Positions 17,697 through 49,891 of a DNA stretch of 64,000 bases are shown here, in pieces (within the stretch, counting starts at the first letter, position 1; every line of letters begins with the position of its first letter). Below the pieces are notes generated by a model. That model was not told where the DNA came from, did no database searches, and was given only the letters and a program-made list of their open reading frames with translations. The translations under genes and the position numbers were made by a program. Source of the DNA: Microbacterium sp. nov. GSS16 (lineage in GTDB: Bacteria; Actinomycetota; Actinomycetes; Actinomycetales; Microbacteriaceae); assembly GCF_028198145.1 (NCBI RefSeq), contig NZ_CP116338.1:372001-436000 (forward strand). Reading direction: 5' to 3'.

Positions 17697-17816
17697 TGTC
17701 CGACGACAGTGATTCTGTAGTGCGTGCCAGTGATCTTGTGACCAAGATCGGCGGATTGTCGGTCAATCGGCGTCATACCGACACGCGCTGAGGCTGGCCC
17801 AGTGCCATTGATCCTG
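17697..17816 (+). repeat. Left end of the Tn7-like element with three putative TnsB-binding repeats
   Basis: After the TGTCCGA tip come AGTGATTCTG (17708-17717), GTGCCAGTGATCTTG (17724-17738) and GTGCCATTGATCCTG (17802-17816). The first two are 21 bp apart and the third is isolated, resembling the spread sites in the left end of Tn7. The tip-to-first-site distance is about eight bases shorter than at the right end. Confidence 0.75.
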
Positions 17817-18094
17817 TAGTTCGCAGTCGCAAGGGGCGGCTCCTGATGCCGGGGCGGGCCGCCCCGGACACTCCCAGATCGCACCGACGTGGCAGCAGAT
17901 GATCGAGGACGACGTCATCACCCGAGCGGCTCGCGACACCGTGGCGAACGGCTATCAGCACATCGGCATAGCCGAAGGCTGCGGCGACGAACGTGGCGTT
18001 GGCAACAGCGACATGGCTCATGAGGAACTGTTCGTGACAACGAGGCTGCGGCGGACTTCAAGACCCACGACGAAGCGAAGGCGGAAGGACACAG
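17817..18094. other. Non-coding or relic stretch inside the left end
   Basis: Between the left-end repeats and the arsR terminator I find no convincing gene. Short open frames exist on both strands, for example one opening at 17899 that reads MIEDDVITRAARDTVANGYQ, but there is no ribosome-binding site or recognisable family and the frame runs through the arsR gene antisense. It may be a fragment of a lost gene. Confidence 0.35.
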
Positions 18095-18128
18095 GACCGC
18101 TCGGCCCCTCGGTGGAGACCGAGCGGTC
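18095..18128 (-). terminator. Hairpin overlapping the arsR stop codon
   Basis: A perfect 10-bp stem (18095-18104 with 18119-18128, GACCGCTCGG/CCGAGCGGTC) with a 14-base loop coincides with the end of the arsR-type gene, as expected for its terminator on the minus strand. Confidence 0.55.
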
Positions 18129-18465
18129 ACCGATCGTTGGGAAGGTGGCGAAGGTGCCCCATGGCCTCGTCGAAGAGATCTGCGACGTGGTCGTCGAACA
18201 GCACGTAGTGGATGTGCCGTCCCTCACGATCGCCGCGGACCACGCTGAGATTCCGGAGAAGCCGTAGGTGGTTGGAGAGCGTCGTCTGTCCGATGCCGAG
18301 CTGCGCGCCGAGGTCGGTCACCGTGCTGGGCCGGATGCGCAGCGCGCTCAGGATGCGGAGTCGGACCGGTGACGCCAGTGCCCGCATGATCTCAGCCAGC
18401 CGCTCGGCATCCCCCGCTGACAGCGGAGCAGATGCCGATTCTGCCGAGTCGGTCATAGTTGACAT
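18127..18465 (-). CDS. ArsR/SmtB-family metal-responsive repressor
   Basis: A 112-residue winged-helix repressor. The HTH region reads LASPVRLRILSALRIRPSTV, then LGIGQTTLSNHLRLLRNLSV, with the wing DREGRHIHYVLFDDHVADLF. ArsR/SmtB proteins leave DNA when they bind metal. The cysteine-based sensor motif of ArsR/CadC is absent; the C-terminal DDHVADLFDEAMGHLRH has Asp/His residues in the place used by alpha-5 type sensors for zinc, nickel or cobalt. It is divergent from the P1B-4 ATPase across a 70-bp AT-rich gap, so it most likely represses that pump and itself. Confidence 0.9.
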   Translation of the reverse strand: MSTMTDSAESASAPLSAGDAERLAEIMRALASPVRLRILSALRIRPSTVTDLGAQLGIGQTTLSNHLRLLRNLSVVRGDREGRHIHYVLFDDHVADLFDEAMGHLRHLPNDR

Positions 18466-18535
18466 CCTCCCCTATGAGCACGATTATCATTCACATATAT
18501 CAACATATCATGTTCTTGTGATGTATTGTCGAAGC
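18466..18535. promoter_or_regulatory. Divergent promoter/operator between the ArsR repressor and the metal ATPase
   Basis: This 70-bp gap is strikingly AT-rich for this genome, with repeated ATATC/GATAT elements around 18494-18510. SmtB/ArsR-family operators are typically AT-rich imperfect palindromes placed exactly like this. I cannot define a clean palindrome by eye. Confidence 0.5.
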
Positions 18536-20566
18536 ATGACCAGCTCGACTGCCACGAACTCGCACGACACCACAGAGGAACATGCACACGGCTCCGCCCG
18601 GTGGGAGTTGTGGTTCGCCATCGCCGCGGGAATCACCTACGCCGCGGGCATGATCGCAGAGTATGCGGTCGGCTTGCCGCTCATGGGTCTGCCCTTGGTC
18701 CTGTTCATCGCCACCTACTTCTTCGGAGGCTTCTTCACCGTGCGCACGGCGGTCTCGTCGACGCTGCGGGGCAAGTTCGAGGTCGACTTCCTCATGATCG
18801 TCGCCGCGATCGGCGCCGCGCTGATCGGGAAGTGGGCGGAGGGCGCGGTGCTGCTGTTCCTCTTCAGCCTCGGCCATTCCCTCGAGGAATACGCGATGAG
18901 CCGCGCCAGCAAGTCGATCGAAGCGCTGGCCGAACTCGCGCCACGGAGTGCCCTGGTGCGCCGCGGAGACGACGATCCCGTCGAGGTTCCCGTGGAGCAG
19001 ATCGCGGTGGGTGATGTCGTGGTGGTGCGCCCGAACTCGAGGATCCCGTCGGACGGGTTCGTGATCGCCGGGATCTCGGCGGTCGATCAGTCGGCGGTCA
19101 CCGGTGAGTCGATGCCCATCGAGAAGGAGCCGGTCGCGGATCGCGAGCGGGCGATGCGCACCGTGGATACCCTTCCGGCCGCGAATCGCGTGTTCGCCGG
19201 CACGGTGAACGGCTCCGGAGTGCTCGAGGTCGTGGTGTCGGCGACGGCCGCGGACTCGACGCTGAGCAAGGTCGTCGAGCTGGTCCGCACGGCCGACCAG
19301 GCTGCGTCACCGACGCAGCAGTTCATCAACCGTTTCCAGCGGTGGTACGTGCCCGCGGTGATCCTCGGCGTGGCCGCCACCCTGATGGTCGCGATGTCCG
19401 TGTTCTCGCAGCCGTTCACGGATGCCTTCTATCTCGCAATGACTGTCCTCGTGGCCGCGAGCCCGTGCGCACTGGCCATCGCGACGCCGGCGGCCGTTCT
19501 CGCTGGAGTCGCCCGAGCGGCCCGCGCCGGCGTGCTGGTCAAGGGCGGTGCTCCGCTGGAGACCCTGGGGCGCGTCAGGGCGATGGCCTTCGACAAGACC
19601 GGCACCCTCACCTGGGGCAACCCGCAGGTGACGTCGGTCACTCCCGTGGACGGCGTGGACGGCAGCCTCCTCGTCCCCATCCTGGTCGGCGTGGAGTCTC
19701 TCAGCGATCACCCGCTCGCAGCAGCGATCGTCCGTGACCTCGCAGGTCAGGTGTCCGAGGCGGAGCGCGTCGAGGCGTCGGACCTCAACGCCGTCGTCGG
19801 CCGCGGTGTACGCGCCACGGTCGACGGAGAGATCGTCGAGGTCGGTAACCTGCGGATGTTCGACGAGCAGGGCCTCGCCCTTCCCTCGTCAGTCGAGAAC
19901 GCTTACACGGAGGCGCGCGACTCCGGCCAGACGCTGATGATCGTCCGACACGGTGATCGGTTCCTGGGGGTCGTCGGCGTGATGGACACCTCTCGCGCCG
20001 AGTCCGCGCAGGTACTCCGCGTGTTGCGAAGCGCGAACGTCGGCCAGCTCGTGATGATCTCCGGCGACAACCAGCGCGTCGCGGATGCCGTCGGCCGCGA
20101 GGTCGGCGTCGACACCGCAATCGGTGAGCTGCTGCCGGAGGACAAGGTTGCGCACATCACTCGTCTTGCCGAGACGCATCGCCCCATCGCGATGGTCGGG
20201 GACGGCGTGAACGACGCGCCCGCGATGGCTCGCGCGGACATCGGCATCGCGATGGGGGCTGCCGGTTCCACCGTCGCACTGGAGACCTGTGACATCGCTC
20301 TCATGAGCGACGACCTGGGACGCGTCCCGTTCGCCGTGCGTCTGAGCCGCGCGACCAGCCGGATCATCCGTCAGAACCTCATCGCGAGTCTCGCGATCGT
20401 CGTCCTCCTGGTGATCGCCACCTTCATCGGGCTGAACATCGGTGCCGTGGTGCTCATCCACGAGGGCTCGACACTCATCGTCGTGGCCAACGCTCTTCGC
20501 CTCCTGGGCTTCGAGCGTGGCAAGGAGCACGCTGGCATCGACCACGAAGACCGCCCCTCGCGTTGA
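18536..20566 (+). CDS. Heavy-metal P-type ATPase, P1B-4 subgroup (CtpD/CoaT/PfeT-like)
   Basis: A 676-residue metal exporter lacking an N-terminal HMA domain; the start holds only a short His-containing tail (HDTTEEHAHG). The membrane metal site is SPC (VLVAASPCALAIATPAAVL) rather than CPC, and the last helix pair carries LIHEGSTLIVVANALRLL. SPC plus HEGST defines the P1B-4 group, known to export Co, Fe(II), Zn or Ni. Other motifs are VTGES (actuator), FDKTGTLTWGNP (phospho-Asp near residue 350) and GDGVNDAPAMARADIG. ATG 18536 is preferred, though MYCRS at 18521 is in frame. It is divergent from the ArsR gene that probably controls it. Confidence 0.92.
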   Translation: MTSSTATNSHDTTEEHAHGSARWELWFAIAAGITYAAGMIAEYAVGLPLMGLPLVLFIATYFFGGFFTVRTAVSSTLRGKFEVDFLMIVAAIGAALIGKWAEGAVLLFLFSLGHSLEEYAMSRASKSIEALAELAPRSALVRRGDDDPVEVPVEQIAVGDVVVVRPNSRIPSDGFVIAGISAVDQSAVTGESMPIEKEPVADRERAMRTVDTLPAANRVFAGTVNGSGVLEVVVSATAADSTLSKVVELVRTADQAASPTQQFINRFQRWYVPAVILGVAATLMVAMSVFSQPFTDAFYLAMTVLVAASPCALAIATPAAVLAGVARAARAGVLVKGGAPLETLGRVRAMAFDKTGTLTWGNPQVTSVTPVDGVDGSLLVPILVGVESLSDHPLAAAIVRDLAGQVSEAERVEASDLNAVVGRGVRATVDGEIVEVGNLRMFDEQGLALPSSVENAYTEARDSGQTLMIVRHGDRFLGVVGVMDTSRAESAQVLRVLRSANVGQLVMISGDNQRVADAVGREVGVDTAIGELLPEDKVAHITRLAETHRPIAMVGDGVNDAPAMARADIGIAMGAAGSTVALETCDIALMSDDLGRVPFAVRLSRATSRIIRQNLIASLAIVVLLVIATFIGLNIGAVVLIHEGSTLIVVANALRLLGFERGKEHAGIDHEDRPSR

Positions 20567-22567: not shown

Positions 22568-22582
22568 TAGTAAGATGGTGGT

Positions 22583-25625: not shown

Positions 25626-25853
25626 ATGGCCGAGTTCGAGTTCTGGGTGAATGGAATGACCTGCGAGCACTGCGAGCGCGCAGTCACCGCTGAACTCTCC
25701 GCCCTTCCCGGTATCGTCGATGTTCGGGTCGACGCCGCCTCAGGCCGTGTCCAGCTGGGCCATGCAGTGGCCGTTGATCTGAACGCGGTGGAGTCGGCCG
25801 TCGAGGACGCCGGCTACACGGTGCGGTCCTGGCCCCAAGCCACGAATGCCTGA
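25626..25853 (+). CDS. copZ: CopZ-type copper chaperone (HMA domain)
   Basis: A 75-residue single heavy-metal-associated domain with the metal motif GMTCEHCERAV near residue 10 and a normal beta-alpha fold (VDVRVDAASGRVQLG, then VESAVEDAGYTV). It carries Cu(I) to the CopA pump. ATG 25626 follows AAGAGGAG at ideal spacing. The stop overlaps the CopD-CtaG gene start by eight bases. Operator C upstream implies copper-linked control. Confidence 0.93.
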   Translation: MAEFEFWVNGMTCEHCERAVTAELSALPGIVDVRVDAASGRVQLGHAVAVDLNAVESAVEDAGYTVRSWPQATNA

Positions 25854-27915
25854 CACCGACACCGCCACTCCCGTAGCAGCATCCGCGACCGCTGCGGACC
25901 CCCGCGCCCGCAGACCCTTGATCGCGTCGGCCGCGCTCCTGATCGGCGCGGCCGTCGTTGTACTGATCTTCTTCCCGGTTCTCGTGGCGGTTGCTCTCGG
26001 GGAGGAACCGTATGAGCGGATCTTCGTCGGGTATCCCGGGGTCGATGTGGCTGTGGTTACCACGATCCTGCTCTCCGTCGCGCAGCTCGCCACGCTGATC
26101 ACCAGCGGCGCGCTCGTGCATCTGCTGTTCTTGCGCGATGTCCCGGGCCGCGGGGCGCGATATCTCTCAGAGGGATTCGAGATCTCGGTGCTGCGTGTCT
26201 CCTCTGGTGCATGGTCTGTGTGCGCCGGCGCGCTGATTGTCTTCGAGGCTCTCGATGCCAACGGCACCCCGCTCGTGCGGCTGACCGTCGCTCGGGCTTT
26301 GCCGTTCTTGTGGGAAGCGAGCGACGCGCCGAAGGCCTGGACGGTCAGTTTCCTGGCGGCTTTGATCGTCTTTTTCGCCTCCTTCTTCGCAGAACGGTGG
26401 ACCGGGCTCCTCATCCCGTTGTGGGCGACTGCGATCGCTGTGCTCGCTCCCGTCGTCACCGGGCAAGTGCTCGTCGGGCCCGATCATGACTTCGGCAGCG
26501 ATGCCGCCATCTTCCAAACCCTCGGCGTGAACGCTTTCTTCGGAGCGATCCTGGTCGCCGTCTTGCGTGTCCTTTCCGGACGGCTTGTCCCCCCCGCGAC
26601 CCTGCGGCGACTGTTCCAGATCGGTACCGTCGCACTCCCGATTATTGTGGGCACAGACATCATCATCGGGGTGTTCAAGCTCGCCGGCGGCCCCATCACC
26701 GCCTCGCTGACCGGGTGGCTGATCCTCGCCGGCTTTGCCTGCCTGATCGTCTTCGCGGTGACATTCGTTGCCGCCGTGGTTCTCGCCCAGCGAGGACGGC
26801 TACGCGCGGGGAACCTGACCGTATTGCTTTCCCTGGGCGCTGTGACGGTGGCGGGGTGGACAGGGGTCGGCGTGGCGATGACGCGACAGCCTCCGCCGCA
26901 GTACTTCGTACCGACGAGCATCGAGCAGGTGTTCATGGGCTTCGAGGTCCCTGACACTCCGACACTCGATGTGTTGTTCGGCCAGTGGCGTCCGAACCTG
27001 CTGTTCCTCGGCATCGCCGTAGCTGCGGTCACCGTCTACCTGATCGCGGTGCGCACGCTCCGCCGTCGGGGCGACCGGTGGCCTCTCGGTCGGACGGCCG
27101 CGTGGATCGGCGGGTGGACCGTCGTGGTCGTCGCCACCAGTTCCGGGTTCGGGAAGTACTCAGCCCCGGACTTCGGGGTGCACATGATCGTGCACATGTC
27201 GCTGAACATGCTCGCCCCCGGGCTCCTCGTCCTCGGCGGCGTGATCACTCTGCTGCTGCGCGCGACCCGCTCGGACCGGAACAAGCCCGCAGGCCTGCAC
27301 GACTGGATCACGTGGGTGCTGCACTGGCGGGTCCTGCAGTTCCTCTACAACCCCCTGATCGTGTTCGTCGTCTTCATCGGCTCCTACTACGGCCTGTACC
27401 TCACCGGCATCTTCGGCGACTACATGCGGTTCCACTGGGCGCACCAGCTCATGAACCTGCACTTCCTCATCGTCGGCTACCTGTACTACAGCCTCATCAT
27501 CGGCGTCGACCGGCCCCCACGGCCGCTGCCGCACATCGGCAAGCTCGGCTACGTGCTGGCGGCAATGCCGTTCCACGCGTTCTTCGGCGTGATCCTGATG
27601 ACCAGCCCCGACATCATCGCCGAGGACTTCTACTTGCGCCTTGGCCTACCCTGGGCTGACCTGCAGGCCCAGCAGTACCTCGGCGGCGGAGTCGCCTGGG
27701 CGGGCGGGGAGATCCCGCTGATGATCGTCATCGTCGCGCTCGGCATCCAATGGAGCAGACAGGACGCGCGGGATGCGCGCCGTAAGGACCGGCACATCGA
27801 CACCGGGCGCGACGACGAATACGACGCCTACAACCAGATGCTCCAACGCCTCGCTGACCGCGACGCGAGTCGCCCCGGTCCCCGACCGACCGTCCGAGAG
27901 GACACCCACTCATGA
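25846..27915 (+). CDS. CopD-CtaG fusion membrane protein
   Basis: 689 residues with about 14 membrane helices in two units. The first half resembles CopD (helices with GALVHLLFLRDVPGRGARYL and TVSFLAALIVFFASFFAERW). The second half is caa3-type CtaG, a copper-delivery assembly factor for cytochrome c oxidase, with the His/Met pattern FGVHMIVHMSLNMLAPGLLV, FHWAHQLMNLHFLIVGYLYY and MPFHAFFGVILMTSPDIIAE. The fusion is known in Actinobacteria. It overlaps copZ by eight bases and copA by four, so import/assembly and export proteins are co-made. Direction of copper movement is inferred only. Confidence 0.9.
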   Translation: MPDTDTATPVAASATAADPRARRPLIASAALLIGAAVVVLIFFPVLVAVALGEEPYERIFVGYPGVDVAVVTTILLSVAQLATLITSGALVHLLFLRDVPGRGARYLSEGFEISVLRVSSGAWSVCAGALIVFEALDANGTPLVRLTVARALPFLWEASDAPKAWTVSFLAALIVFFASFFAERWTGLLIPLWATAIAVLAPVVTGQVLVGPDHDFGSDAAIFQTLGVNAFFGAILVAVLRVLSGRLVPPATLRRLFQIGTVALPIIVGTDIIIGVFKLAGGPITASLTGWLILAGFACLIVFAVTFVAAVVLAQRGRLRAGNLTVLLSLGAVTVAGWTGVGVAMTRQPPPQYFVPTSIEQVFMGFEVPDTPTLDVLFGQWRPNLLFLGIAVAAVTVYLIAVRTLRRRGDRWPLGRTAAWIGGWTVVVVATSSGFGKYSAPDFGVHMIVHMSLNMLAPGLLVLGGVITLLLRATRSDRNKPAGLHDWITWVLHWRVLQFLYNPLIVFVVFIGSYYGLYLTGIFGDYMRFHWAHQLMNLHFLIVGYLYYSLIIGVDRPPRPLPHIGKLGYVLAAMPFHAFFGVILMTSPDIIAEDFYLRLGLPWADLQAQQYLGGGVAWAGGEIPLMIVIVALGIQWSRQDARDARRKDRHIDTGRDDEYDAYNQMLQRLADRDASRPGPRPTVREDTHS

Positions 27916-30167
27916 CGACCACGGACACCACCACACCGGCAACTCTCACCCCGGTGGAGCTCGACATCTCTGGGATGACATGCGCCGCCTGTGCAGGACG
28001 CGTTGAACGCGCACTGAACAAGCTCGACGGGGTGACAGCGAGCGTCAACTACGCCACCGAACGCGCCATCGTCACGGGTCTCCCGGACAACGAGGTGGCG
28101 ACGGCTATCCGGCAGGTCGAGAACGCCGGCTACGGCGCCCACCTGCGCGACGCCAGCGACGACGCCTGGTCCGCGCGCGCCACCGAGGTACGGATCTCCT
28201 CCCTGCGCCGCCGCCTCGCCGTCTCCGCGCTGCTCACCGTGCCGCTGATGGACATTACCATCGTCCTCGCCCTCGTCCCCGGGTGGCGGTTCCCCGGCTG
28301 GGAGTGGGTCTGCGTGCTGATGGCGCTGCCGATCGTGACCTGGGCGGCCTGGCCGTTCCACCGGGCAACGCTCCGCAACCTCCGCCACGGCGCGGTCAGC
28401 ATGGACACCCTCGTCTCCCTCGGCATCGCCGCCTCCTTCGGGTGGGCGATCCTGACCCTGCTGCTCGGCTTCGGCACCACGGAAGCCGCCGGCTACTGGC
28501 TCGGATTCGGCGTCACCCCCGCAGGCGCCGACTCCATCTACCTCGACGTCGCCGCCGGCATGACGACATTCCAGCTCGCCGGCCGCTACTTCGAAACACG
28601 TTCCCGCCGCAAAGCCGGAGACGTGCTCGGAGCCCTCAACGCCCTCGCCGCCACTCACGTCCGGGTCGTCCGCGACGGCATCGAGGCGATCGAGCCCGCC
28701 ACGGCGCTGCGGATCGGCGACACTTTCGTCGTCCTCCCCGGAGAGACCATCCCCGCCGACGGCACCGTCCGAGCGGGCACGGCCGCGGTCGACGCGAGCA
28801 TGATGACCGGAGAACCAGTCCCCGTTCCCGTCGGTCCGGGAGCATCCGTGACCGGAGGCACGATCAGCACCGACGGGCGCCTGGAAGTGACCACCACGTC
28901 GGTCGGCGCGAACACCCAGCTCGCCCAGATGGCGGCCCTCACCGAGCAGGCCCAAGCCCGCAAAGCCCGCGTGCAGAACCTCGTCGACCGCATCGTCACC
29001 TGGTTCGTCCCCGCCGTCATCACCCTCGCGATCATCGTCACCGTCGCCTGGACGCTCACCGGAACCCCGTTCGCGCAGGCATTCGGCATCGGAATCAGCG
29101 TCCTCATCATCGCCTGCCCCTGCGCCCTTGGGCTCGCGACCCCCACCGCGCTCATGGTCGGCATCGGCAGGGCCGCGACCCTCGGCATCCTCATCAAAGG
29201 CCACGACGCCCTCGAAGCCTCCGGCACCATCACCACCGTCATCCTCGACAAGACCGGAACCCTCACCACCGGCCGCATGACCGTCGAAACTGCGACACCC
29301 TACGGCGTCGAAGAACATGAGCTGTGGCGATTGGCCGCATCCGTCGAACAAGGATCAGAACACGCCATCGCCCGTGCCATCCAGGAAGCCGCCCGCGCCC
29401 ACATCACCGACCTACACTCCCTGGAAGATTTCACCGCGCTCCCCGGTCTCGGCGCCACCGCCCGCATCGCCGGCAGCACCCTCCTCATCGGCAACGCCGA
29501 CCTGCTCCGCGAGCACGACATCGACCTCACCCCCGCAGCCGCCGCGCTCGCAGGCGCCCACGAGAAGGGGCACACCGTCGCCCTCGTCGCCCGCGATGGG
29601 AACCTGATCGGCCTGCTCGCCCTCGCCGACACCATCAAACCCGGCGCCGCCGACGCCATCAGCGCTCTCCACGCCCAGAACCTCACCACCGTGCTCCTCA
29701 CCGGAGACAGCCCCGCCGCCGGCGCCCGCATCGCCGCCGAGCTCGGCATCGAACGTGTCCATGCCGGTGTCGCGCCCGCCCAGAAGGCGGACGTGGTCCG
29801 CGAACTCCAGGTCGCGGGAGAGAAGGTCGCGATGGTCGGCGACGGCGTCAACGACGCCGTCGCCCTCGCCACCGCCGACCTCGGCCTCGCGCTCGTCTCC
29901 GGCACCGACATCGCCCTCAAAGCCGCCGACATCATCCTCGTCCGCGACGACCTCCACGTCATCCCCGACGCCATCGCCATCTCCCGCAAGACCCTGCGCA
30001 CGATCCGCACCAACCTCGGCTGGGCATTCGGATACAACATCGCCGCCATCCCCATCGCCGCCGCAGGACTGCTCAACCCCCTCATCGCTGCCGCGGCGAT
30101 GTCCCTCTCGTCCGTCCTCGTCGTCTACAACAGTCTCCGAATCCAGCGCGTCCGCAGCACCCGATAG
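27912..30167 (+). CDS. copA: Copper-exporting P-type ATPase CopA (P1B-1)
   Basis: 751 residues. One N-terminal HMA domain (GMTCAACAGRVERALNKL near residue 18) precedes the helices. The membrane site is CPC (IIACPCALGLATPTALMVG near residue 400). Other motifs are MTGEPVPV (actuator), LDKTGTLTTG (phospho-Asp near 445) and MVGDGVNDAVALATADLG. CPC plus the late-helix YN and MSLSSVLVVYNSLR features define Cu(I) exporters. The ATG overlaps the CtaG fusion stop by four bases. It is the last gene of the copZ operon. Confidence 0.95.
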   Translation: MTTTDTTTPATLTPVELDISGMTCAACAGRVERALNKLDGVTASVNYATERAIVTGLPDNEVATAIRQVENAGYGAHLRDASDDAWSARATEVRISSLRRRLAVSALLTVPLMDITIVLALVPGWRFPGWEWVCVLMALPIVTWAAWPFHRATLRNLRHGAVSMDTLVSLGIAASFGWAILTLLLGFGTTEAAGYWLGFGVTPAGADSIYLDVAAGMTTFQLAGRYFETRSRRKAGDVLGALNALAATHVRVVRDGIEAIEPATALRIGDTFVVLPGETIPADGTVRAGTAAVDASMMTGEPVPVPVGPGASVTGGTISTDGRLEVTTTSVGANTQLAQMAALTEQAQARKARVQNLVDRIVTWFVPAVITLAIIVTVAWTLTGTPFAQAFGIGISVLIIACPCALGLATPTALMVGIGRAATLGILIKGHDALEASGTITTVILDKTGTLTTGRMTVETATPYGVEEHELWRLAASVEQGSEHAIARAIQEAARAHITDLHSLEDFTALPGLGATARIAGSTLLIGNADLLREHDIDLTPAAAALAGAHEKGHTVALVARDGNLIGLLALADTIKPGAADAISALHAQNLTTVLLTGDSPAAGARIAAELGIERVHAGVAPAQKADVVRELQVAGEKVAMVGDGVNDAVALATADLGLALVSGTDIALKAADIILVRDDLHVIPDAIAISRKTLRTIRTNLGWAFGYNIAAIPIAAAGLLNPLIAAAAMSLSSVLVVYNSLRIQRVRSTR

Positions 30168-32602: not shown

Positions 32603-32613
32603 GGTGAGCTCCT

Positions 32614-35381: not shown

Positions 35382-35398
<17 letters not shown>
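35159..35398 (-). CDS. Small zinc-ribbon (TFIIB-type) protein
   Basis: 79 residues. A zinc ribbon with MNCPVDGTTLLV and YCPQCRGVWLDRGELDKII provides C-x-n-C and CPxC ligands. This is followed by a basic, disordered tail (HRRSRHDRGGKRRREG) and a short FLGDLFDF end. Proteins of this type are common but their role is unknown. The ATG follows AAGGAGAG. It overlaps the end of resB by 17 bases and precedes a ctaG gene, so it may act in metal handling or assembly. Confidence 0.85.
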
Positions 35399-37068
<1,670 letters not shown>

Positions 37069-37088
<20 letters not shown>

Positions 37089-39276: not shown

Positions 39277-40006
39277 CGGCATTCTCCTTCTCCTTCTTCT
39301 GCTGTGCCGCCCGATCACGCCGGCGCCGATCACGACCGGCCATGAACATCAGGAGTGCTGCGCTGCCCAGGAGGGCCGCTCCCCCGGCGACGACCAGGAC
39401 GGGAAGCGCATCGAGATCCGTGCTCGGCTGGCTGTGGATGTCGCCGTAGCCGGACTCGGCGGTCGGCGTCGCGGCCGGCGCCGCGGTCTCCGTGTTCTCC
39501 TCCGATGGGGAGGGGCTGCTCGTCGGCGTGGGGCTGCTCGTCGGCGTCCCCGTCGTCTCCACCATGAACGTGTACTCGTCGCTGATCGGGTGTCCGTCAC
39601 TGGACACCACCCGCCACCTCACCGTGACCTCTCCGACGACCAGCTGGTCGGACAGGTTCTGCGTGACCGTCGCCTCGAGGACCTCGGGAGCGCCGTCGAC
39701 GAGACTGCTGCCGTCTTCTGCGATGACCTCGATCGCCGTGGCACCCTCGAGCGTCTGCAGCTCGCCCGTGAAGGTGAGGGAGATCTCCGCCGGGGCGCCA
39801 GATACGGTCGCGGATGCCTCGGGGTAGGTGGAGAGCAGCTCGTCGTGAGCAGCGGCGGGACTCGCCGTGCCGAGAACGGCTCCGCCGATGACCAGCAGAG
39901 CAGACAGGCTGGCGGACGCGGCGAAACCACGGCGCCGGTTGCTCGACGTTCGAGAGGCCGAGAGCCTTCGGCGGCGGATGGATGTCATGAGTTCTGCTTT
40001 CTTCAC
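39266..40006 (-). CDS. CopC-domain copper-binding protein with C-terminal membrane anchor
   Basis: 246 residues. A signal peptide ends ASPAAA, leaving mature HDELLSTYPEASATV; an N-terminal His is the Cu(II) ligand in CopC. The beta-barrel domain ends VVSSDGHPISDEYTFMVE, with the family's DGHP motif. A Ser/Pro/Thr linker, one helix (VLVVAGGAALLGSAALLMFM) and a Lys/Arg tail follow. It binds copper outside the cell and may hand it to CopD/CtaG. GTG 40006 overlaps the previous stop (GTGA); ATG 39988 is the alternative start. Confidence 0.9.
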   Translation of the reverse strand: MKKAELMTSIRRRRLSASRTSSNRRRGFAASASLSALLVIGGAVLGTASPAAAHDELLSTYPEASATVSGAPAEISLTFTGELQTLEGATAIEVIAEDGSSLVDGAPEVLEATVTQNLSDQLVVGEVTVRWRVVSSDGHPISDEYTFMVETTGTPTSSPTPTSSPSPSEENTETAAPAATPTAESGYGDIHSQPSTDLDALPVLVVAGGAALLGSAALLMFMAGRDRRRRDRAAQQKKEKENADES

Positions 40007-41007
40007 GGGCGTTCGATGATGCGGCGGGCGATGGCCGTGGCATCCCGCCAGACCCCCGCGATGGTGTCGGAGCCTCTGCCGCCGTACTGGGGGATCCCGG
40101 CGACGAACAAGCCCGGTATCCCGGTCATGGCCCGCTGGGGAGGATCGATCCGGGCGCTGTCCGGTAGCCAGTCGTCTCCGGGAACGAATCCGGTGGCGAG
40201 GATCACAGAGCTCGGCGTGGCCACCGTTCCGTCGACGAAGGTGACGGTGCTCTTCCCGGCCTTTGCCACTGCGGGGCAGATCCTCACCCCAGCGTCACGC
40301 AGTTGCTCGTAGCTATCCCCGAACACCGGCTCCGATCGCGATCCTCGACCAAGGAGCTGCCGGCGCGGATAGCGCGTTGCCGGCTGGTGCCGACGAGCCG
40401 TGCGGACAGCCAGGGTCACCGCATGTGAGGGGGCGAGTTCGCGGGCCAGCTGTACACCGCTGTTTCCGCCGCCGACGATGAGCACATCGTTCGTGGAGAT
40501 CTGCCGCGGATACAGGTACTCGCTGCTGTGCAGCACGACTCCGGGCACCTGAAGTTCCGCTGCCCATGTCGGGATGCGCGGATGCGCGGCGGCGCCGGTC
40601 GCACACACGACGTTGCGAGTCTGCACCTCGCCTTCCGTGGTCGACAGGTGCAGGACCGAGCCGGACCCGCGCCGCTCCACGCCTGTCGCGCGCACACCCC
40701 AGATGGTCTTCACGCCGAGATCGCCTTCGACGTAGCTGAGGTACTCGATCATCTCGTCGACACGCGGCCGACGTCGTTGATCGCCCAGGAAGGGCAGGCT
40801 CGGCAGAGCGCTGTGACGGACGTCGCTGAGAAGCACCATCGAATGCCACCGGGAAGCCCAGCTGCGCAGGCCTGGCGCGGCCCCGTCGATCACGACGAAG
40901 TCCTGCTGGGGATGCAGTCCTCTCGCGACCAGGGCGGCCGCCACTGCGAGGCCGGCCTGACCACTGCCGACGACGATCACTCGTCTATGCGACAGGCCTG
41001 CCCGCAT
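40003..41007 (-). CDS. FAD/NAD(P)-binding flavoprotein monooxygenase-like oxidoreductase
   Basis: 334 residues with two dinucleotide-binding motifs, VIVVGSGQAGLAVAAAL near residue 10 (FAD) and DVLIVGGGNSGVQLARELA near 170 (NADP), plus ILATGFVPGDDWLPD near 270. This is the class of flavin-containing monooxygenase/CzcO-like proteins found in metal loci. No other clue to the substrate. The ATG overlaps the thioredoxin-like gene's stop and the CopC gene overlaps its own stop, so it is co-translated with envelope copper proteins. Confidence 0.85.
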   Translation of the reverse strand: MRAGLSHRRVIVVGSGQAGLAVAAALVARGLHPQQDFVVIDGAAPGLRSWASRWHSMVLLSDVRHSALPSLPFLGDQRRRPRVDEMIEYLSYVEGDLGVKTIWGVRATGVERRGSGSVLHLSTTEGEVQTRNVVCATGAAAHPRIPTWAAELQVPGVVLHSSEYLYPRQISTNDVLIVGGGNSGVQLARELAPSHAVTLAVRTARRHQPATRYPRRQLLGRGSRSEPVFGDSYEQLRDAGVRICPAVAKAGKSTVTFVDGTVATPSSVILATGFVPGDDWLPDSARIDPPQRAMTGIPGLFVAGIPQYGGRGSDTIAGVWRDATAIARRIIERP

Positions 41008-41714
41008 CACTCGTCACCGTTCACCGCTGCTTCGATGGCGTTCTCGAGGTCGTCCAGCTGCTGCAGCTGGAGCTGCTCGCCCTCGAGGAAGAACGTCGGC
41101 GTGCTGTTGACGCCGAGCTCCTGCCCCGCGTTGAAGTCGAACTCGACTCGTTCGAGCGTGGCGGGATCCGCGATGGCGGCGTCGTAGGCAGCCATGTCCA
41201 GGCCGATCTCCTCGGCGAAACCACGGAAGAGATCAGCGCGGGACTCCCGAGCCTCGCCCCACTCCGCCTGCGTCTCGAACAGCCGGTTGTACATCTCCTC
41301 AAGCCGATCCTGCTGGGCGGCGGCCTCTGCGGCGAGAGCCGCGTTCGTCGAGTTGAAGTGGCCCGGAAGCGGGAAGTAGCGCACCACGTAGGTGATCTCC
41401 CCGGCGTACTTCTCGCGAAGATCCTCCACGATCGGGTAGAACATCCCGCAGGCCTCGCACTCGAAATCGAGGAACTCCACGACCTCGACCGCACCTTCCC
41501 CACCGTCGTCGAGGATGTGCGAGCTGGCGTCGACGACGGCCGGGGGCTCGGCCGTCTGGCCCTCCGGCGCCTCGGGTGACGGAGTCGTCGAGCCTTGGTT
41601 GTTGATCATCACGTAGATGATCGCTCCCAGCACGAGGACGACAACGAGTGCTGCAGTGATCAGGATCGGACGCGCGCTGCGACCAGTGGCGCGCGGCTTT
41701 CCAGAAGGGTTCAT
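41007..41714 (-). CDS. DsbA-family membrane-anchored thiol oxidoreductase
   Basis: 235 residues. An N-terminal signal anchor (ILITAALVVVLVLGAIIYVM) is followed by a DsbA-like thioredoxin domain with the active site FLDFECEACGMFYPIVEDL (C-E-A-C) near residue 90 and cis-Pro VNSTPTFFLEGEQL near 210. It would form or shuffle disulfides outside the membrane. ATG 41714 is preferred over TTG 41726 because GGAG lies six bases before it. It is the second gene of the long copper/cytochrome operon. Confidence 0.9.
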   Translation of the reverse strand: MNPSGKPRATGRSARPILITAALVVVLVLGAIIYVMINNQGSTTPSPEAPEGQTAEPPAVVDASSHILDDGGEGAVEVVEFLDFECEACGMFYPIVEDLREKYAGEITYVVRYFPLPGHFNSTNAALAAEAAAQQDRLEEMYNRLFETQAEWGEARESRADLFRGFAEEIGLDMAAYDAAIADPATLERVEFDFNAGQELGVNSTPTFFLEGEQLQLQQLDDLENAIEAAVNGDE

Positions 41715-41808
41715 CAAGTACTCCAAACAGGATCAAACGGCATGGAACAGGCCCCGGGCGGGTACCCGGGTGCGAGGTGCCGTCCGCACAGGACGGCATG
41801 CCGAAATG

Positions 41809-42562: not shown

Positions 42563-43372
42563 GTGTCGCAGAAAGCCACCACGACCCGCCAAGCCCCCGT
42601 CATTCCGCGGCACGGACCTGAAAACCGCGTACCGGCAGTGTCTGCGACACCTCCCCGCCGTCCACGCGCCCGGAGCCCGTGGGCACGAGCGAAGGCGCTC
42701 GGAGCCGCCCTCGCCGTCAGCGTGATGATCACCGGCGCCGCCCTTCCGGGAACATCCGACGCGGAATCGGAGCAGGTCGAGGCCGCGGTCACCGTTGACG
42801 CACAGTCATACACCGCAGGAGAGGACATCCGCGTCGAGGTCCTCCCTCGCGGAGACTTCTCCGCAACGACGGAGGAGGAGATCGCCGCGTCTCGCGCCCA
42901 GGCGATCACGGCCGCCGTCGCATCCGGCCGGCCCCTCTCGACAGCTGTGAACCTGCCAACAGCTCAACAGGTTCTCATGCCGTTGGCATCCGGCACCTAC
43001 TCCCTCAGCGACGGGTTCGGCGCCTCGCGTCCGGGTCGCTCGCACATGGGTCAAGACCTCGCGGCGTCGGTCGGGACGCCCATCTATGCGGCTGTCGAAG
43101 GCTGTGTTTCGCTCTCAACCGAGAGCAACAGCGGCTACGGCGTGAGCATTCAGGTCGAGAGCCTGCTCGACGGAGAGACGGTCAGCACCCTCTACTCGCA
43201 TCTGAACAGTGGGACCCGCGCGGTGGAAGTCGGGGACTGCGTCACTCCCGGCCAGTATCTCGGCGACGTCGGCTCCACCGGCTATGTCTTCGGATCCTGC
43301 CTGCACTTCGAGGTCCACATCAACGGCCGACCCATCGATCCCATGCCATGGCTCAGGGAGAACGTGGAGTGA
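42563..43372 (+). CDS. M23-family (LytM-type) secreted peptidase
   Basis: 269 residues. An N-terminal signal anchor follows a basic stretch (AKALGAALAVSVMITGAALP). A coiled segment comes before a LytM/M23 domain with metal ligands in RSHMGQDLAASVGTPIYAAV (HxxxD) and GSCLHFEVHINGRPIDPMPW (HxH). M23 enzymes cut peptidoglycan cross-links or act as non-catalytic activators; the ligands look intact. The GTG start has only a moderate ribosome site. It sits divergently from the copper operon and is the only wall-directed cargo gene. Confidence 0.88.
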   Translation: MSQKATTTRQAPVIPRHGPENRVPAVSATPPRRPRARSPWARAKALGAALAVSVMITGAALPGTSDAESEQVEAAVTVDAQSYTAGEDIRVEVLPRGDFSATTEEEIAASRAQAITAAVASGRPLSTAVNLPTAQQVLMPLASGTYSLSDGFGASRPGRSHMGQDLAASVGTPIYAAVEGCVSLSTESNSGYGVSIQVESLLDGETVSTLYSHLNSGTRAVEVGDCVTPGQYLGDVGSTGYVFGSCLHFEVHINGRPIDPMPWLRENVE

Positions 43373-44932: not shown

Positions 44933-46000
44933 TCAGTGGAGGAGGGCGTCGGGCATGGGCCGGCGGCGGTCGAGCACCCGGTTGGCGGGTGCGGCGACGC
45001 CGGGCTCGTAGGGTTGCACCTGGATGCGGACGGTGCTGAGGTGGCGCAGCAGGCAGCTGCGGTGGCGTTGTGATGAGGCGACGAGAGCCTTCTCCAGCGT
45101 CGCCGGCCGCATGCTCGTGTGGCTCCGCCGCATCCCGTTCGCCGTCTCTACAGCTGTTTTCCCCTGGGTGACGATGCGTTCGGCGACCTGGTGGAGTTGG
45201 TCGGTCGTGGAGCTGTGCATGATCGTGATGACGGCGGCCTCGAGCGCCCAGACCTGCTGTGCCAGCCGGAACCGCGGGGTGAGGAGGTAGCTGGCGAAGG
45301 ACAGGTCGGTGAGCACCGTCGCTAGACGGACGATCTCCGGGTACGCGATCAGGAACACGCTGTCCTGGTCCACCGCATCAAGGCCGAACGCCGCCATGCG
45401 CTCGCGGAACCGGGGTGGGAGGTCCGCGTCGGCGGCCCAGTGCCGGATCAGGGTCGCGGCCAGCTGCAGTTCCCCGGTGGTCAGGCCGACGCCGCGTTTC
45501 CACAGCGATCCGGACAGGCACCGCTCGGCACGCATGTACTCGGGGAACCCGGTCAGGTCGACGTCGGCGCCGTCGAGATGCCAGCGGCGGTGCCGGTTGC
45601 AGACGGCCCCGCCGCGGCTGCGCACGGTCGTCTCCTCCCCGTGCACGCAGCGCCGACACGCGGCCCGCGGCTGCTGCGTGTATCCGCAGCGCCGGCATGG
45701 GTGCGGCGCCCACTCGTGGTGGTGGCAGCGGACATACATCGCGTTGCGTCGAGCGTCCCTGTCGAAGTGCCCGGCCGGCAGCCCGCCGAGGCGCTCCGCC
45801 CACGCCGCCGCGCGCTCCAGGTCGGGCCGGTACGGAGGGATCCCGGAGATCCGGGTGACGTGGATCCGCACCAGCGTCGGCGTGAGGGCGTTCGCGACCG
45901 CCAGGCGCGCGAGGTATCCGGTGACCGTCTCCCCCGCCAGCGGCCGCACCGAGACCGGGAGCGGCCGGACCTGATCCGGCGGGATCGGCGTCCTGCTCAT
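44933..46000 (-). CDS. tniQ: TniQ-family target-selection protein
   Basis: 355 residues. The TniQ N-terminal region opens LPVSVRPLAGETVTGYLARL, and two zinc-finger blocks follow: CHHHEWAPHPCRRCGY and AACRRCVHGEE, later CNRHRRWHLDG. TniQ/TnsD proteins choose the target and recruit the TnsC ATPase. Only one TniQ gene is present, with no TnsE and no CRISPR-Cas genes in the element. It overlaps tnsC by four bases and is last in the transposition operon. Confidence 0.9.
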   Translation of the reverse strand: MSRTPIPPDQVRPLPVSVRPLAGETVTGYLARLAVANALTPTLVRIHVTRISGIPPYRPDLERAAAWAERLGGLPAGHFDRDARRNAMYVRCHHHEWAPHPCRRCGYTQQPRAACRRCVHGEETTVRSRGGAVCNRHRRWHLDGADVDLTGFPEYMRAERCLSGSLWKRGVGLTTGELQLAATLIRHWAADADLPPRFRERMAAFGLDAVDQDSVFLIAYPEIVRLATVLTDLSFASYLLTPRFRLAQQVWALEAAVITIMHSSTTDQLHQVAERIVTQGKTAVETANGMRRSHTSMRPATLEKALVASSQRHRSCLLRHLSTVRIQVQPYEPGVAAPANRVLDRRRPMPDALLH

Positions 46001-46974
46001 GCCGATGCCGCAGCTGCAGGGGCCTGCTTGGTGCCGAACACCGCGTCCAGGTCGAGGCGCTCGGCGCCGGAGTCGATCGCGTCGATGGCGAGCATGTGCA
46101 GCGTGCTCGTCAGATCCCCGATGATCCCGCCGGTCGCGTCGTGCAGCTCACGCTCGTGCCGGAGGATCGCGCCGGGCTGCTGCTCGAGCAGTCCGAGGGA
46201 TCCCTCGACGGCGACCAGCAGGTTCGCCCAGGCCTGTTTCGCCTTCCCGGTGCGAGGGAACTTCTGCAGGTTCATGATCTGGAAGCGGCTGCTGATCTGC
46301 CGGCCGCGGGTTCCATCCAGCAGGCCGCTGGCCTCCACGTCGACGCCGGCGTAGACGAAGGTCCCGGGGCACTTCTCGGACAGCTGCTTGAGCGTGTCGG
46401 ATGCTTCCGCCATCTGCCGGTACCTCTGATTCAGGTTGTGGATCTCGTCCACGACGATCAGCTCCGTACCGCACGTCCCGATCAGCGTGGCGATCGTGTT
46501 CATCAGTTCGCCCGTGTTGTACCGGGCACGCTCGGGCAGTCCCAGGAAGTGGGCGAACTCCCCGAGCATCAGCTTCGGCGTGCACGACGGCGGCACGGAC
46601 ACGTAGATCACCGGGATGGCGTTGCTTCCGACCGCGCCGATGTCCCGGCGGCGGCGTTCGAACCGGCGGGCGATCTGCGTGATCGTGGTCGTCTTGCCGA
46701 TGTTCGGCTCTCCCGACACGATCACGCCGAGCTTGCCGTGCGACTTGTACCGATTCAACATCAGCCGACGCAGGATCTCCGTCTCGATCGCCTTGAACTG
46801 CGCCGTGTGCACCACGCTCCCGCGAATCATGAACTGCTTACGCGCCTCCCGGTTCAGCGCCCTATCTCCCGGTGACAGCGCCTCCAGCTCCTCCCGGCGC
46901 ATCGGCACCGGCTGGTCGAGGATCTCGTCGACGAATCCGGTCCATCCCTGCTTGGTGTTCATCGCCAGAGTCAT
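45997..46974 (-). CDS. tnsC: Transposition regulator ATPase TnsC/TniB
   Basis: A 325-residue AAA+ ATPase of the TniB/TnsC type. Walker A is VSGEPNIGKTTTITQIARRF near residue 85 and Walker B LIVVDEIHNLNQRY near 172. The N-terminus reads WTGFVDEILDQPVPMRREEL. It connects TniQ at the target to the TnsA/TnsB transposase. It overlaps tnsB and tniQ by four bases each. Confidence 0.93.
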   Translation of the reverse strand: MTLAMNTKQGWTGFVDEILDQPVPMRREELEALSPGDRALNREARKQFMIRGSVVHTAQFKAIETEILRRLMLNRYKSHGKLGVIVSGEPNIGKTTTITQIARRFERRRRDIGAVGSNAIPVIYVSVPPSCTPKLMLGEFAHFLGLPERARYNTGELMNTIATLIGTCGTELIVVDEIHNLNQRYRQMAEASDTLKQLSEKCPGTFVYAGVDVEASGLLDGTRGRQISSRFQIMNLQKFPRTGKAKQAWANLLVAVEGSLGLLEQQPGAILRHERELHDATGGIIGDLTSTLHMLAIDAIDSGAERLDLDAVFGTKQAPAAAASA

Positions 46975-48956
46975 GTCAGCCGGTCCCAGACGCCGTCGTC
47001 GTCAGAGAGGAGCGAGAAGCCGCCGCCGCGCTCCCAGATCACCTCATCATCGTCCGGTTCCTCCACCGGCTCCTCGCGAGCCACCGACTTCGTGACGCTC
47101 GTCAGATGCAGCGGGTCGAGGTCGACCTCGGCGGCGCGCACGGCGCGGTTGCGCTTCGCGCCGGGGCGTACCCACTGGGCACGTTTCATCCGATCGGACA
47201 GGTACTCGGCGTCCTCGCGTGCTTCCCGATCTCCATCCGCGTCGCCTGCCCATGCCTCGCGCCACACGTCGCCGCCCATCGGGTCGTCGAGCCTGTCTGG
47301 GGCGGCGCGGAACGGGACGAACTCCCCGTCGTGCTCGACCCAGACGAACAGCGGATTGTGCGGGTCGTGACGGATCACACACGGGCGGGTCGCGCCTTCT
47401 CCCCCGGCGCCGGCGGCGCGTAGCTCGGTGAGGCGGTTCGACTTGTAGACCCGGCGGTCGTGGTTGATGCCGTAATCCTGCAGCGTGCACGTCTTCGCCG
47501 GCAGCAGGCCGATGAAGTCGTCCAGCTCGAAGGGGACGTGGATCTCCGGGGCGACGCGGCGGTATGCGCGGAACATCTCGTTCGGCGTCAATGTCCGGCC
47601 GGGGAGCAGCGGGTCGATGAGTCCGGCATGCGGACGGTTCTGCCACTCGATAGCGACCCAGTCCTCCAGCAGCTCCTGCAGCTGGGCCAGTGCCAGCGTG
47701 TCGTCGGTGGGCTCCTCCCGCCCGCGCCGCTCGACGCTCCCGCCCGTGAACCCCTCGAGGTACTGCACGAAGCGGGTCACGATCGTCTCGAACGTGCGCT
47801 CGACGTGCGGTTTATCCGTCGGCGTCTGTCGCGCCGCGAATGTGAGGGAGATCCCCAGACGGGCGCACCCGCGGCTGAATGCCCGAGATCGGAAGATCTT
47901 GCCGTTGTCCGTGGTGATGTTCTCCGGGAAGATGTGCGGCTGCGCCAGCCGATGCCGGTCCAGACGCTCCTGATCGATCATGAACTGCCCCGCCCAGGTC
48001 GCCGACATCCTGCGCCGCTGCTCTCGCGCACCAGGCGGACGGTGCTCGTACGGGACCAGCACCCGCGCCAGAACACCGGCGAGATCCGCGCTGTTCGTCG
48101 CGACCGCACGCACGACAGCGGCGAGGATCGAGCGGGTTGCGACATCGTGGATGATCGTCAGCTCCGCCCGGTTCAGCCGGCCGTCCAGCAGCCGCGACGG
48201 CACATCGATCGCCGTGGAATCGATCTGAACATGCTCCCCAGGCCGCATCGACCCATGAAGACCGAACGCCCGATCAGGCTTGTTCGCCGCGACCTCCCTC
48301 GCCCGCGCCGAACCGCTCAGCCTGCCCGCGGTCGGATGCTCCGCGATCCGCCGGTATAGTGTCCGATCGCTCGGCAGATCCAACCGCTCGCCGTAGTCCT
48401 CCTCCAGCATCCACTTCACCTGATCGACCGTGCGGCGACGGGTGCCCGACGATCGCAGCTTGCCCGCCGCGCCGAGCTCGCTCAACGCAGCCGCGATCCG
48501 CGGGTCAGGCACCGGCTTACGACCGTTGTATCGACGCTTGTCGATCAGACCGAGCAGACCCTCCCGCCGGTACTGCTGGAACTTGCGACGCACGGTCGCA
48601 ATCGAGACCTCCCCGACGAACCGAGACATCTCGACACGAACATCTTCCAGCAGCGACCCAGCATCCTCTCCCGTCTCGACACGCGCCTTCACGATCTCGA
48701 ACTGCTCGGCCCAGGCCTCGATGATCTGCCGCTCTTCCTCTGGGAGGCCCTCCAGGAGCTGAACGTCGGCCGGCGCCGTCGCCGGCGGGCGCAGCTCATG
48801 CCAGACCACATCCGGCATCCGCAGCAACTCCTCGATCACCACCTCGCGGAGGCAGTCCTCAGCCAGTGAACGCAGCACGGCGACTCGATAGTCGACCGCG
48901 ATCACCACGAAGTCCTGGTCTCCCCAGGTCAACCGCGTCCCGATCCCGGCACGCAT
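46971..48956 (-). CDS. tnsB: Transposase TnsB/TniA (DDE, Mu-type)
   Basis: 661 residues. A helix-turn-helix part (FVGEVSIATVRRKFQQYRRE) comes before the RNase H-like core with DDE residues in HVQIDSTAIDVPSR near residue 235, NITTDNGKIFRSR near 348 and KPHVERTFETIVTRF near 380, followed by a Mu-type C-terminal beta-barrel. It cuts and joins the transposon 3' ends, binding the 15-bp repeats at both tips. ATG 48956 is two bases after the tnsA stop, with GAGGGCGG before it. Confidence 0.94.
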   Translation of the reverse strand: MRAGIGTRLTWGDQDFVVIAVDYRVAVLRSLAEDCLREVVIEELLRMPDVVWHELRPPATAPADVQLLEGLPEEERQIIEAWAEQFEIVKARVETGEDAGSLLEDVRVEMSRFVGEVSIATVRRKFQQYRREGLLGLIDKRRYNGRKPVPDPRIAAALSELGAAGKLRSSGTRRRTVDQVKWMLEEDYGERLDLPSDRTLYRRIAEHPTAGRLSGSARAREVAANKPDRAFGLHGSMRPGEHVQIDSTAIDVPSRLLDGRLNRAELTIIHDVATRSILAAVVRAVATNSADLAGVLARVLVPYEHRPPGAREQRRRMSATWAGQFMIDQERLDRHRLAQPHIFPENITTDNGKIFRSRAFSRGCARLGISLTFAARQTPTDKPHVERTFETIVTRFVQYLEGFTGGSVERRGREEPTDDTLALAQLQELLEDWVAIEWQNRPHAGLIDPLLPGRTLTPNEMFRAYRRVAPEIHVPFELDDFIGLLPAKTCTLQDYGINHDRRVYKSNRLTELRAAGAGGEGATRPCVIRHDPHNPLFVWVEHDGEFVPFRAAPDRLDDPMGGDVWREAWAGDADGDREAREDAEYLSDRMKRAQWVRPGAKRNRAVRAAEVDLDPLHLTSVTKSVAREEPVEEPDDDEVIWERGGGFSLLSDDDGVWDRLT

Positions 48957-48958
48957 GA

Positions 48959-49690
48959 CTACACCGCCCTCGCCCTGGTGCTCAACGACAGCGGAGTCCG
49001 AACGTCGAAGTCCAGATCTCCCCACCACATCGCGGAGTACACCGCACCGAGCGGCTGATCGCAGGCATCCTCGAGCAGCTCCGCCCACTCCGCCAGCGAG
49101 TTCCTCTCTCCCGCGTGCTCACCGAGTCGACTCCTCACCGGCTCGGATGCCCACCGTCGGTATCGGTAACCCGACAGGAAGCGAAGGTTCCGGTGCTCCT
49201 CCACGGAAATGTCACTGACCACCGTGTATCCCCAGCCCAGTCGGTCGCACAGGTCCGCCGTGAGCGCGAACGTCGTCACATCGTCATCGCGGATATTGCT
49301 GTCGGGCTTCACATCGATGAGCACGCCACGCCCGTCGCGGTAGCGCACGAAGTAGTCCGGCGCGTGCTTGCCTCCCGACGCCCAGTGGATCCACATCGGC
49401 TGTGCCGCGATGCCGACGACATCTCGACCCCGATCGAGTCTCATCACCGCCGCACGCTCGTACAACGACTCGAACCAGACATGGCTCTCGATCGTGGCCG
49501 CCCAGTAGAGGCCCTCGTAGTTCCGCTTGTGCTTCCACGATGCCGGCGTGCGCACACGAGCCACGGACTCGAACGCGACATCCACGACATCGGATGCATC
49601 GCGACGACTCGGATCGCCGTCGCGGACGAACTCGATCTGCGCGTGTACGACCGCGCCCGAACCGCCGACAAGCTGTTGGGTCAGCTTCAT
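48959..49690 (-). CDS. tnsA: TnsA-like transposase endonuclease
   Basis: 243 residues. A type II restriction-like core is seen: IESHVWFESLYERAAVMRLD (Glu), SGGKHAPDYFVRY (Asp in PDYF) and GVLIDVKPDSN (D-V-K). TnsA cuts the 5' ends so the element moves by cut-and-paste instead of forming cointegrates. ATG 49690 is chosen because GGAG lies six bases before it. It is the tns gene closest to the right end, as in Tn7. Confidence 0.88.
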   Translation of the reverse strand: MKLTQQLVGGSGAVVHAQIEFVRDGDPSRRDASDVVDVAFESVARVRTPASWKHKRNYEGLYWAATIESHVWFESLYERAAVMRLDRGRDVVGIAAQPMWIHWASGGKHAPDYFVRYRDGRGVLIDVKPDSNIRDDDVTTFALTADLCDRLGWGYTVVSDISVEEHRNLRFLSGYRYRRWASEPVRSRLGEHAGERNSLAEWAELLEDACDQPLGAVYSAMWWGDLDFDVRTPLSLSTRARAV

Positions 49691-49800
49691 GATCGCTCCG
49701 ATCTCACCACGTGTGTTCAGTTGGAACGAGAACGTGAACCTGACGCGGCCAGAGTAAGACCGGGAGCACTGGCAGCCGGGAAGGCCGCATCCGCGTGTTG

Positions 49801-49891
49801 CAGAATCACTGGCACGGAACACGGGATCAACGACGCGGAATCAATATCAATGGCACGGAGCGCAGAATCACTGGCACCGGGCAATCGGACA
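49801..49891 (-). repeat. Right end of the Tn7-like element with four packed putative TnsB-binding repeats
   Basis: Four sites at about 21-bp spacing: CAGAATCACTGGCAC (49863-49877), ATATCAATGGCAC (49844-49856), GGGATCAACGACG (49822-49834) and CAGAATCACTGGCAC (49801-49815), followed outward by the TCGGACA tip (49885-49891). The tight spacing matches the right end of Tn7. The sequence inward to the tnsA start (49691-49800) holds its promoter. Confidence 0.75.

Follow-up and report, generated by a model that had tools for sequence, protein, structure and literature searches.

Where does the Tn7-like transposon at this locus end, and into what was it inserted? The window, by which we mean the whole 64-kb stretch of DNA analysed (positions 372001-436000 of the one-contig genome of Microbacterium sp. 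nov. GSS16, 2,906,279 bases), contains tnsA, tnsB, tnsC and tniQ genes that an earlier note on this DNA had assigned to a single element with matching TGTCCGA tips. We find that the window very probably holds two Tn7-like transposons stacked at one chromosomal attachment site, with the first (element A) lying inside the second (element B).

Boundaries of elements A and B

Element A is a genuine Tn7-like transposon of 32,187 bp (17697..49883) with tips TGTCC and GGGCA, and its right boundary lies 8 bp inside the one previously given. The boundaries were placed by the tips, by the spacing of binding sites and by a perfect 5-bp target duplication, ATCGG, present at 17692..17696 and 49884..49888; the same duplication is found in M. 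ihumii (L036). Several repeats resembling transposase-binding sites occur at both ends. The left end (17697..17820, plus strand) has three TnsB-site-like repeats, at 17705, 17726 and 17804, as had been noted before. In the right end (49795..49883, minus strand) the repeats are packed. Three of the packed set described earlier were recovered by script, at 49863, 49842 and 49801, and a weaker fourth, between 49842 and 49801, was seen by eye. The pattern CCAGTGATTCTGYR, with at most two mismatches, has five matches in the window, all inside the two ends of A, where 1.04 would be expected, and none of 100 shuffled windows contained five.

The left tip of A is TGTCCGA at 17697. This 7-mer has 17 matches in the window compared to 14.2 expected by chance, and by itself is therefore no evidence for an end. 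In the A-type relatives L031-L036, and at the left end in the window, 11 bp separate the terminal TGTCC from the nearest AGTGATTCTG-like repeat; for the right tip proposed earlier (TCGGACA, 49885-49891) this spacing would be 19 bp. For this reason, we place the right tip at 49883. The letters TCGGACA are the end of A's target duplication followed by ACA, the last 3 bp of element B, and only the left member of the supposed pair of matching tips is retained. This comparison with elements that carry a related tnsB upheld the left end and replaced 49891 by 49883. With respect to the TGT...ACA termini, the left TGTCC of A matches its relatives, and the right tip reads GGGCA where the relatives read GGACA.

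Directly to the left of A, positions 17617-17696 carry repeats that differ in kind from those of A and form the right end of element B. In M. ihumii L036, repeats of the B type run up to a terminal ATCGGACA, directly beside which lies another element of the same type. In the window, the left tip TGTCCGATCTCACGAAA at 12307 follows GTCGG (12302..12306), and GTCGG recurs at 49892..49896 directly after the ACA at 49889..49891. We therefore define B as 12307..17696 plus the severed ACA, a cargo-only Tn7-like element of 5,393 bp that A splits 3 bp from its right tip. Because A splits B, B arrived before A. No transposase gene was found among the scanned open reading frames (ORFs) of B. Neither a protein search nor a Mu-transpos_C search found a second TnsB in the genome, the copy in A being the sole match.

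The assignment of A to the Tn7-like elements, made earlier from the tips, repeats and core genes, was confirmed with Pfam and NCBIfam models. The module lies on the minus strand in the order tniQ, tnsC, tnsB, tnsA and adjoins the right end. The tnsA ORF (48959..49822, start probably near 49690) matches PF08722 just under the cut-off, with an expectation value (E) of 1.1e-05, and matches NCBIfam NF033179 (TnsA_like_Actin) at 189.6 bits, above the cut-off of 110. The tnsB ORF (46971..49088, start probably near 48956) encodes a protein 90% identical to the M. ihumii TnsB, with a Mu-transpos_C match at the cut-off and matches to solved TnsB chains (best E 1.1e-10); the motifs HVQIDST, TTDNGK and KPHVER are read as its DDE residues. 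The tnsC product (45997..46974) belongs to the TniB/AAA family (PF05621, 3e-20) and has a Walker-A-like motif, GEPNIGKT. A single TniQ of 355 amino acids was found in the module (44933..46000), and its predicted structure has a mean predicted local distance difference test score (pLDDT) of 89. The ten best rows of a structural search with this model all came from entries containing TniQ or TnsD, as judged by entry content and not chain by chain, and covered residues 12-87 or 12-343 at weak Z scores of 2.8-4.6. A TniQ profile had no match among PDB sequences at E 0.01. Judging from the model, the helical C-terminal part of TniQ could bind DNA.

The attachment site and its occupants

Both elements lie just upstream of a conserved region (49917..50067, plus strand) that consists of a promoter-like sequence and a putative small RNA with a GC-rich 3' hairpin. 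A MarR-family gene follows (listed ORF 50001..50534, plus strand; likely start 50106). A 709-bp query covering the site and the marR gene had matches in 193 of 198 Microbacterium genomes, many of which cover the marR part only. A 141-bp query made up of the putative RNA plus the sequence upstream had matches in 47 of 60 Microbacteriaceae genomes, taken one per genus with our own included. The label "promoter-like" refers to conservation and to a -10-like box, CGTTATA, read by hand; a simple promoter and terminator scan of the site found nothing. Upstream of the putative RNA are CGTTAC/CGTTAT-type repeats about 11 bp apart, which we take to resemble an OmpR-family operator.

The conserved structured element is a putative small RNA. 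The fold of the window's copy is more stable than those of all 200 shuffled sequences (z -4.72). In a consensus fold of 15 sequences, 10 of 27 pairs are changed on both sides, a few sequences fail to form some of the pairs, and covariation contributes little to the energy (-1.69 of -37.02 kcal/mol). No Rfam family matched at the gathering threshold, and the weak matches below it, asX1 and PtaRNA1 among them, rest mainly on the 3' hairpin. The region had no match in plasmid and phage collections. PS02066 has another copy of the putative RNA, nearly identical, at L031 4048-4173 (minus strand), some 5 kb away from the occupied site; the similarity begins near the insertion point.

Comparison with relatives lacking the insertion, an approach suggested in the earlier note, succeeded in part. 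In two of the three closest congeners by site similarity (G036 and G076), the left block (to about 10996) and the right block (from 49907 or 49917) are only about 650 bp apart, compared to 38.9 kb in the window. An exact empty site was not found in the congeners compared, and the intervening sequences of G036 and G076 differ. A further genome, G069, is uninformative on the left, its similarity to the left flank stopping after position 7313. The site's left side is variable among congeners: positions 10997-12301 of the window, left of B, form a stretch with a weak polysaccharide-deacetylase-like ORF, and no such stretch was found next to the site in either G036 or G076.

Close relatives of A's TnsB occur on six contigs, with 74-90% identity in the best segment, and on the plasmid pYJNG, with 73%. 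In a set of 148 genomes, seven others have a TnsB at E<1e-100. The right tip is 52-59 bp from the CGTTATA box in six of these, and the seventh (G053) lies on another contig. Weaker TnsB relatives with a listed site position, such as those of G085, G029 and G001, lie away from it, which indicates that the small-RNA site belongs to this branch and not to all Tn7-like elements of Microbacterium. A-type tips are present in 15 of 366 Microbacterium genomes, our own included. All seven A-type elements that were paired end to end have matching 5-bp flanks, although in two of them (G442 and G419) there were several candidate tips and the matching pair was taken. A-type ends without a tns match within 1.5 kb occur at the site in L109 (G071) and L113 (G152), and these are either remnants or cargo-only A-type elements.

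Recent movement of A's kin is well supported by one pair of sequences. G321 and G393 share an A-type element of 27,873 bp (L131/L132) with three mismatches, at two different sites. The duplications are TCGGC at the small-RNA site and CGGAC at the other, which is on a plasmid-like contig colinear with part of pYJNG. TniQ, TnsC and TnsA are identical in the two copies, and TnsB differs by one residue; the cargo consists of Kdp, NhaA-type and TrkH-type ion transporters. The near identity of the copies, their separate duplications and their identical TniQ argue for recent movement. The flanks in L032, L033 and pYJNG (L037) have in common CTTGACA, within a shared CTTGACAnnnGTGnTA motif, 44-46 bp from the A-type right tip, so the A-type group also uses a plasmid-type site. 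A structured RNA at the plasmid-type target was unsupported (z -0.10, -0.32 and -1.26), and the L037 target had no Rfam match at E 0.1. Repeats resembling a C-type end lie near the plasmid-type target in L033.

The B type, too, has other representatives. An autonomous B-type relative occupies the same site in G004 (L076 3548-17858), with the duplication GTCGG, TnsA, TnsB, TnsC and two TniQ proteins, and B-type right ends are also found in G002 and G066.

Nesting and mobility

As with Tn7-like transposons in general, the tips at this site stand at a nearly constant distance from the conserved sequence. Distances from A-type tips to the -10-like box are 64 (window), 61, 71, 70, 65, 62, 75, 59 and 49 bp (range 49-75, median 64, n=9), and those of other types are 51-59 bp (median 56, n=15). 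The two groups differ with all nine A tips counted (Mann-Whitney p=0.002), where the "other" ends come from loci picked by best site or TnsB similarity and are not a random sample. The 49-bp tip of G041, a left-end-like sequence, was kept in this main test; p is 0.00013 without it, and 0.059 with the five non-nested A tips alone. Among the site loci L038-L067, 23 of 30 matched the RNA core, and the window's own and a few others were cut or had more than five mismatches. Four of these loci contributed tips that were counted by eye. A possible tip in L052 was left out, and a degenerate one in L079 (41 bp, no tns match) was removed before counting.

Four of the nine A tips are nested within the terminal 8-15 bp of another element, the duplication included (the window, L036, L034 and L035, the last from the right side only). 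The clearest parallel to the window is M. ihumii L036, where the same right flank is preceded by a 7.5-kb A with the duplication ATCGG, then ACA, then GGACA; GGACA also precedes the left tip of its B-type element. A thus sits at the same place in a B-type tip in both. The cargo-only B-type element of M. ihumii (L036 about 16708-20091, about 3.4 kb) carries an ArsP-type permease, a Cad-family transporter and LspA, and abuts a further B-type end.

We propose the following history. The cargo-only B would have inserted upstream of the putative small RNA, giving the GTCGG duplication, and was probably mobilised by a transposase encoded elsewhere, for example by a B-type element such as that of G004. 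A would then have inserted 3 bp inside B's right tip, giving the ATCGG duplication. The promoter region of the small RNA is probably what the TniQ of A recognises when it steers TnsABC to insert upstream. With tips at a median of 8 bp farther out than those of other end types, A would land in the last bases of a resident. Since the end repeats of A and B differ, target immunity should not block A. By cutting B's tip away from B's transposase-binding sites, A would deprive B of its mobility. A fixed offset could explain the nesting, and we keep it as a working hypothesis. Its fuller form is a competition by offset, in which A-type elements insert in a resident's last bases and immobilise it and one TniQ serves both the chromosomal and the plasmid site. 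We put this forward tentatively, its chances being clearly below even.

Whether A can still move is a separate matter. The intact core genes had suggested to the earlier note that it may, and the catalytic motifs are indeed intact, but the right tip departs from that of the relatives. With GGGCA in place of GGACA, open genes do not prove mobility, and the present mobility of A must be called uncertain. The insertion may be old and A may by now be ordinary chromosome, a reading compatible with the proposed origin. In addition to the non-standard tip, the right-end repeats of A are partly degenerate and the genome has a single A-type TnsB. All four tns/tniQ genes are nevertheless open, with catalytic-type motifs, both target duplications are still perfect, and close relatives have moved in recent times. 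We regard an immobile island as a serious possibility that falls somewhat short of even chances.

The nesting could also be caused by a preference for transposon ends, such as the tips of B-type and C-type elements, as targets, with no role for distance from the small RNA. The four nested tips would follow directly from such a preference. In G462, whether or not at the small-RNA site, the left end of an A lies within a C-type end-repeat array. In pYJNG (L037 about 26400-26450), one A-type tip directly adjoins a further A-type end, at a location other than the small-RNA site. The pYJNG case weighs against a pure distance rule and allows for some preference for ends. However, five of the nine A-type tips at the site lie outside such tips, four of them at 59-75 bp, and we consider tip preference an unlikely explanation overall.

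It is also conceivable that A and B form a compound unit (12307-49891) that moves on B's outer tips. These tips are flanked by the perfect GTCGG duplication, and M. ihumii has a similar A-in-B layout at the same site with different cargo. Against this, the repeats of B's right end lie in the interior, separated by 32 kb from the outer right tip, and only 3 bp of B are left beside A's end; on the evidence of this locus such a unit is very improbable. A single element from 17697 to 49891 without nesting is less credible still, for although its tips TGTCCGA and TCGGACA agree over seven bases, its flanks (ATCGG and GTCGG) have a mismatch, its right tip lies 19 rather than 11 bp from the first repeat, B-type end repeats adjoin its left tip, and the tip, duplication and ACA stand apart in M. 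ihumii. We thus retain the insertion of A into a resident B.

Cargo and relation to known systems

The copper and cytochrome c content attributed earlier to the cargo was borne out. A carries a copper-type P-type ATPase, a second heavy-metal ATPase with an ArsR regulator, CopC and three CtaG-domain proteins, together with CcsA-like, ResB, CcdA-like and TlpA-like proteins, the last four being the parts of a System II cytochrome c pathway. Near the left end are the ArsR-family regulator (18127..18465, minus strand) and the heavy-metal ATPase (18212..20566, plus strand), which scores above the cut-off of a cadmium-family subfamily model. They are followed on the plus strand by a protein with a C-terminal Caa3_CtaG domain (25846..27915) and the heavy-metal ATPase above the cut-off of the copper-translocating subfamily model (27912..30167). 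A long run on the minus strand then encodes a Caa3_CtaG family protein (30599..31501), the CcsA-like cytochrome c assembly protein (31577..32617, PF01578), apolipoprotein N-acyltransferase (Lnt, 32614..34194), a further Caa3_CtaG family protein (34198..35136), ResB (35382..37088, PF05140), the CcdA-like protein (DsbD_TM, 37069..37833), the TlpA-like thioredoxin (37830..38579), signal peptidase II (LspA, 38758..39333), the CopC-domain protein (39266..40006, PF04234, 7.4e-22), an FAD/NAD(P)-binding oxidoreductase (40003..41010) and a DsbA-like thioredoxin (41007..41726). An M23 peptidase is encoded at 42563..43372 on the plus strand. No Cas family was found among the cargo ORFs of A scanned with Pfam, which were a part of the total, and no array search was made.

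On an M. sediminis plasmid, a similar run aligns with 38% of the query at 79% identity, and other congeners have portions of the cargo at places other than the attachment site, one of them at G004:C1:309713-318026. The cargo of A is therefore a travelling module that is not unique to A.

The cargo of B is of a predicted defence type. It comprises an ApeA-like gene (12325..13860, plus strand; PF18862, 3.5e-26), whose listed ORF begins within B's end and whose true start is probably later, and on the minus strand the adjacent reverse transcriptases Drt3b (14118..16166; PADLOC, 1.8e-170) and Drt3a (ORF 16159..17766; PADLOC, 2.4e-85), by which we assign this pair to the DRT3 systems. The listed Drt3a ORF spans A's tip, and the part that matches starts at residue 88 (about 17505). 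The ApeA-like gene had no match in PADLOC. In L081 (G187), a DRT3 stretch 86% identical to that of B is found at a distance of about 10 kb from this attachment site, close to another Tn7-like module. With A nested in such an element, the contrast drawn earlier between copper and defence cargo overlooks the neighbouring element.

These results give base-level boundaries for an actinobacterial Tn7-like group and place its landing site next to a putative small RNA that matches no Rfam family at threshold. Transposase-less Tn7-like elements are found to carry predicted defence-type genes (B) or metal-transport genes (M. ihumii). The recurrent nesting of tips offers a testable model of the way one site is shared or contested by Tn7-like elements whose ends differ. 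With three differences in 27,873 bases between its chromosomal and plasmid-like copies, the G321/G393 element is likely to represent an active system suitable for study.

Tn7 makes a 5-bp target duplication, as A does, and uses TnsD and TnsE. A differs in having one 355-amino-acid TniQ, while kin with an identical TniQ occupy both a chromosomal and a plasmid-like site; an extra selector in unannotated cargo is possible. Like Tn7 as outlined in the excerpted part of a review of att-site targeting (PMC11406308), A is inserted next to a conserved sequence, toward which its tnsA end points. The same excerpt states that the presence of Tn7 inhibits the insertion of a second copy at that place. Our own inference is that elements with different ends would escape inhibition of this type.

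The second, actinobacterial clade of Tn7-like elements (Benler et al. 2021, PMC8649781) had no experimentally characterised member according to the excerpt of that study. A resembles this clade in its TnsA-TnsB-TnsC-TniQ core, its arrays of TnsB sites and its cargo, a likeness drawn without a tree for clade membership. The excerpt mentions neither a small-RNA site of this kind nor tip-in-tip nesting for the clade, and no title or abstract opening among the papers listed by our literature searches describes either of them. According to the same partial text (PMC8649781), heavy-metal detoxification genes are abundant in Tn7-like cargo, and the earlier suggestion that metal cargo is out of the ordinary for such elements must be dropped; metal cargo is already known, and it is the nesting habit of A that is unusual. 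The DRT3 set of B resembles other DRT3 systems (PADLOC models) in its side-by-side Drt3a and Drt3b, and differs in its setting, a Tn7-like element that lacks a transposase gene and where an ApeA-like gene is its neighbour. As far as their partial descriptions go, the copper/silver Tn7-like elements of enterics and the Burkholderia metal island likewise place metal resistance on a Tn7-like element, whereas A combines copper genes with a System II cytochrome c set.

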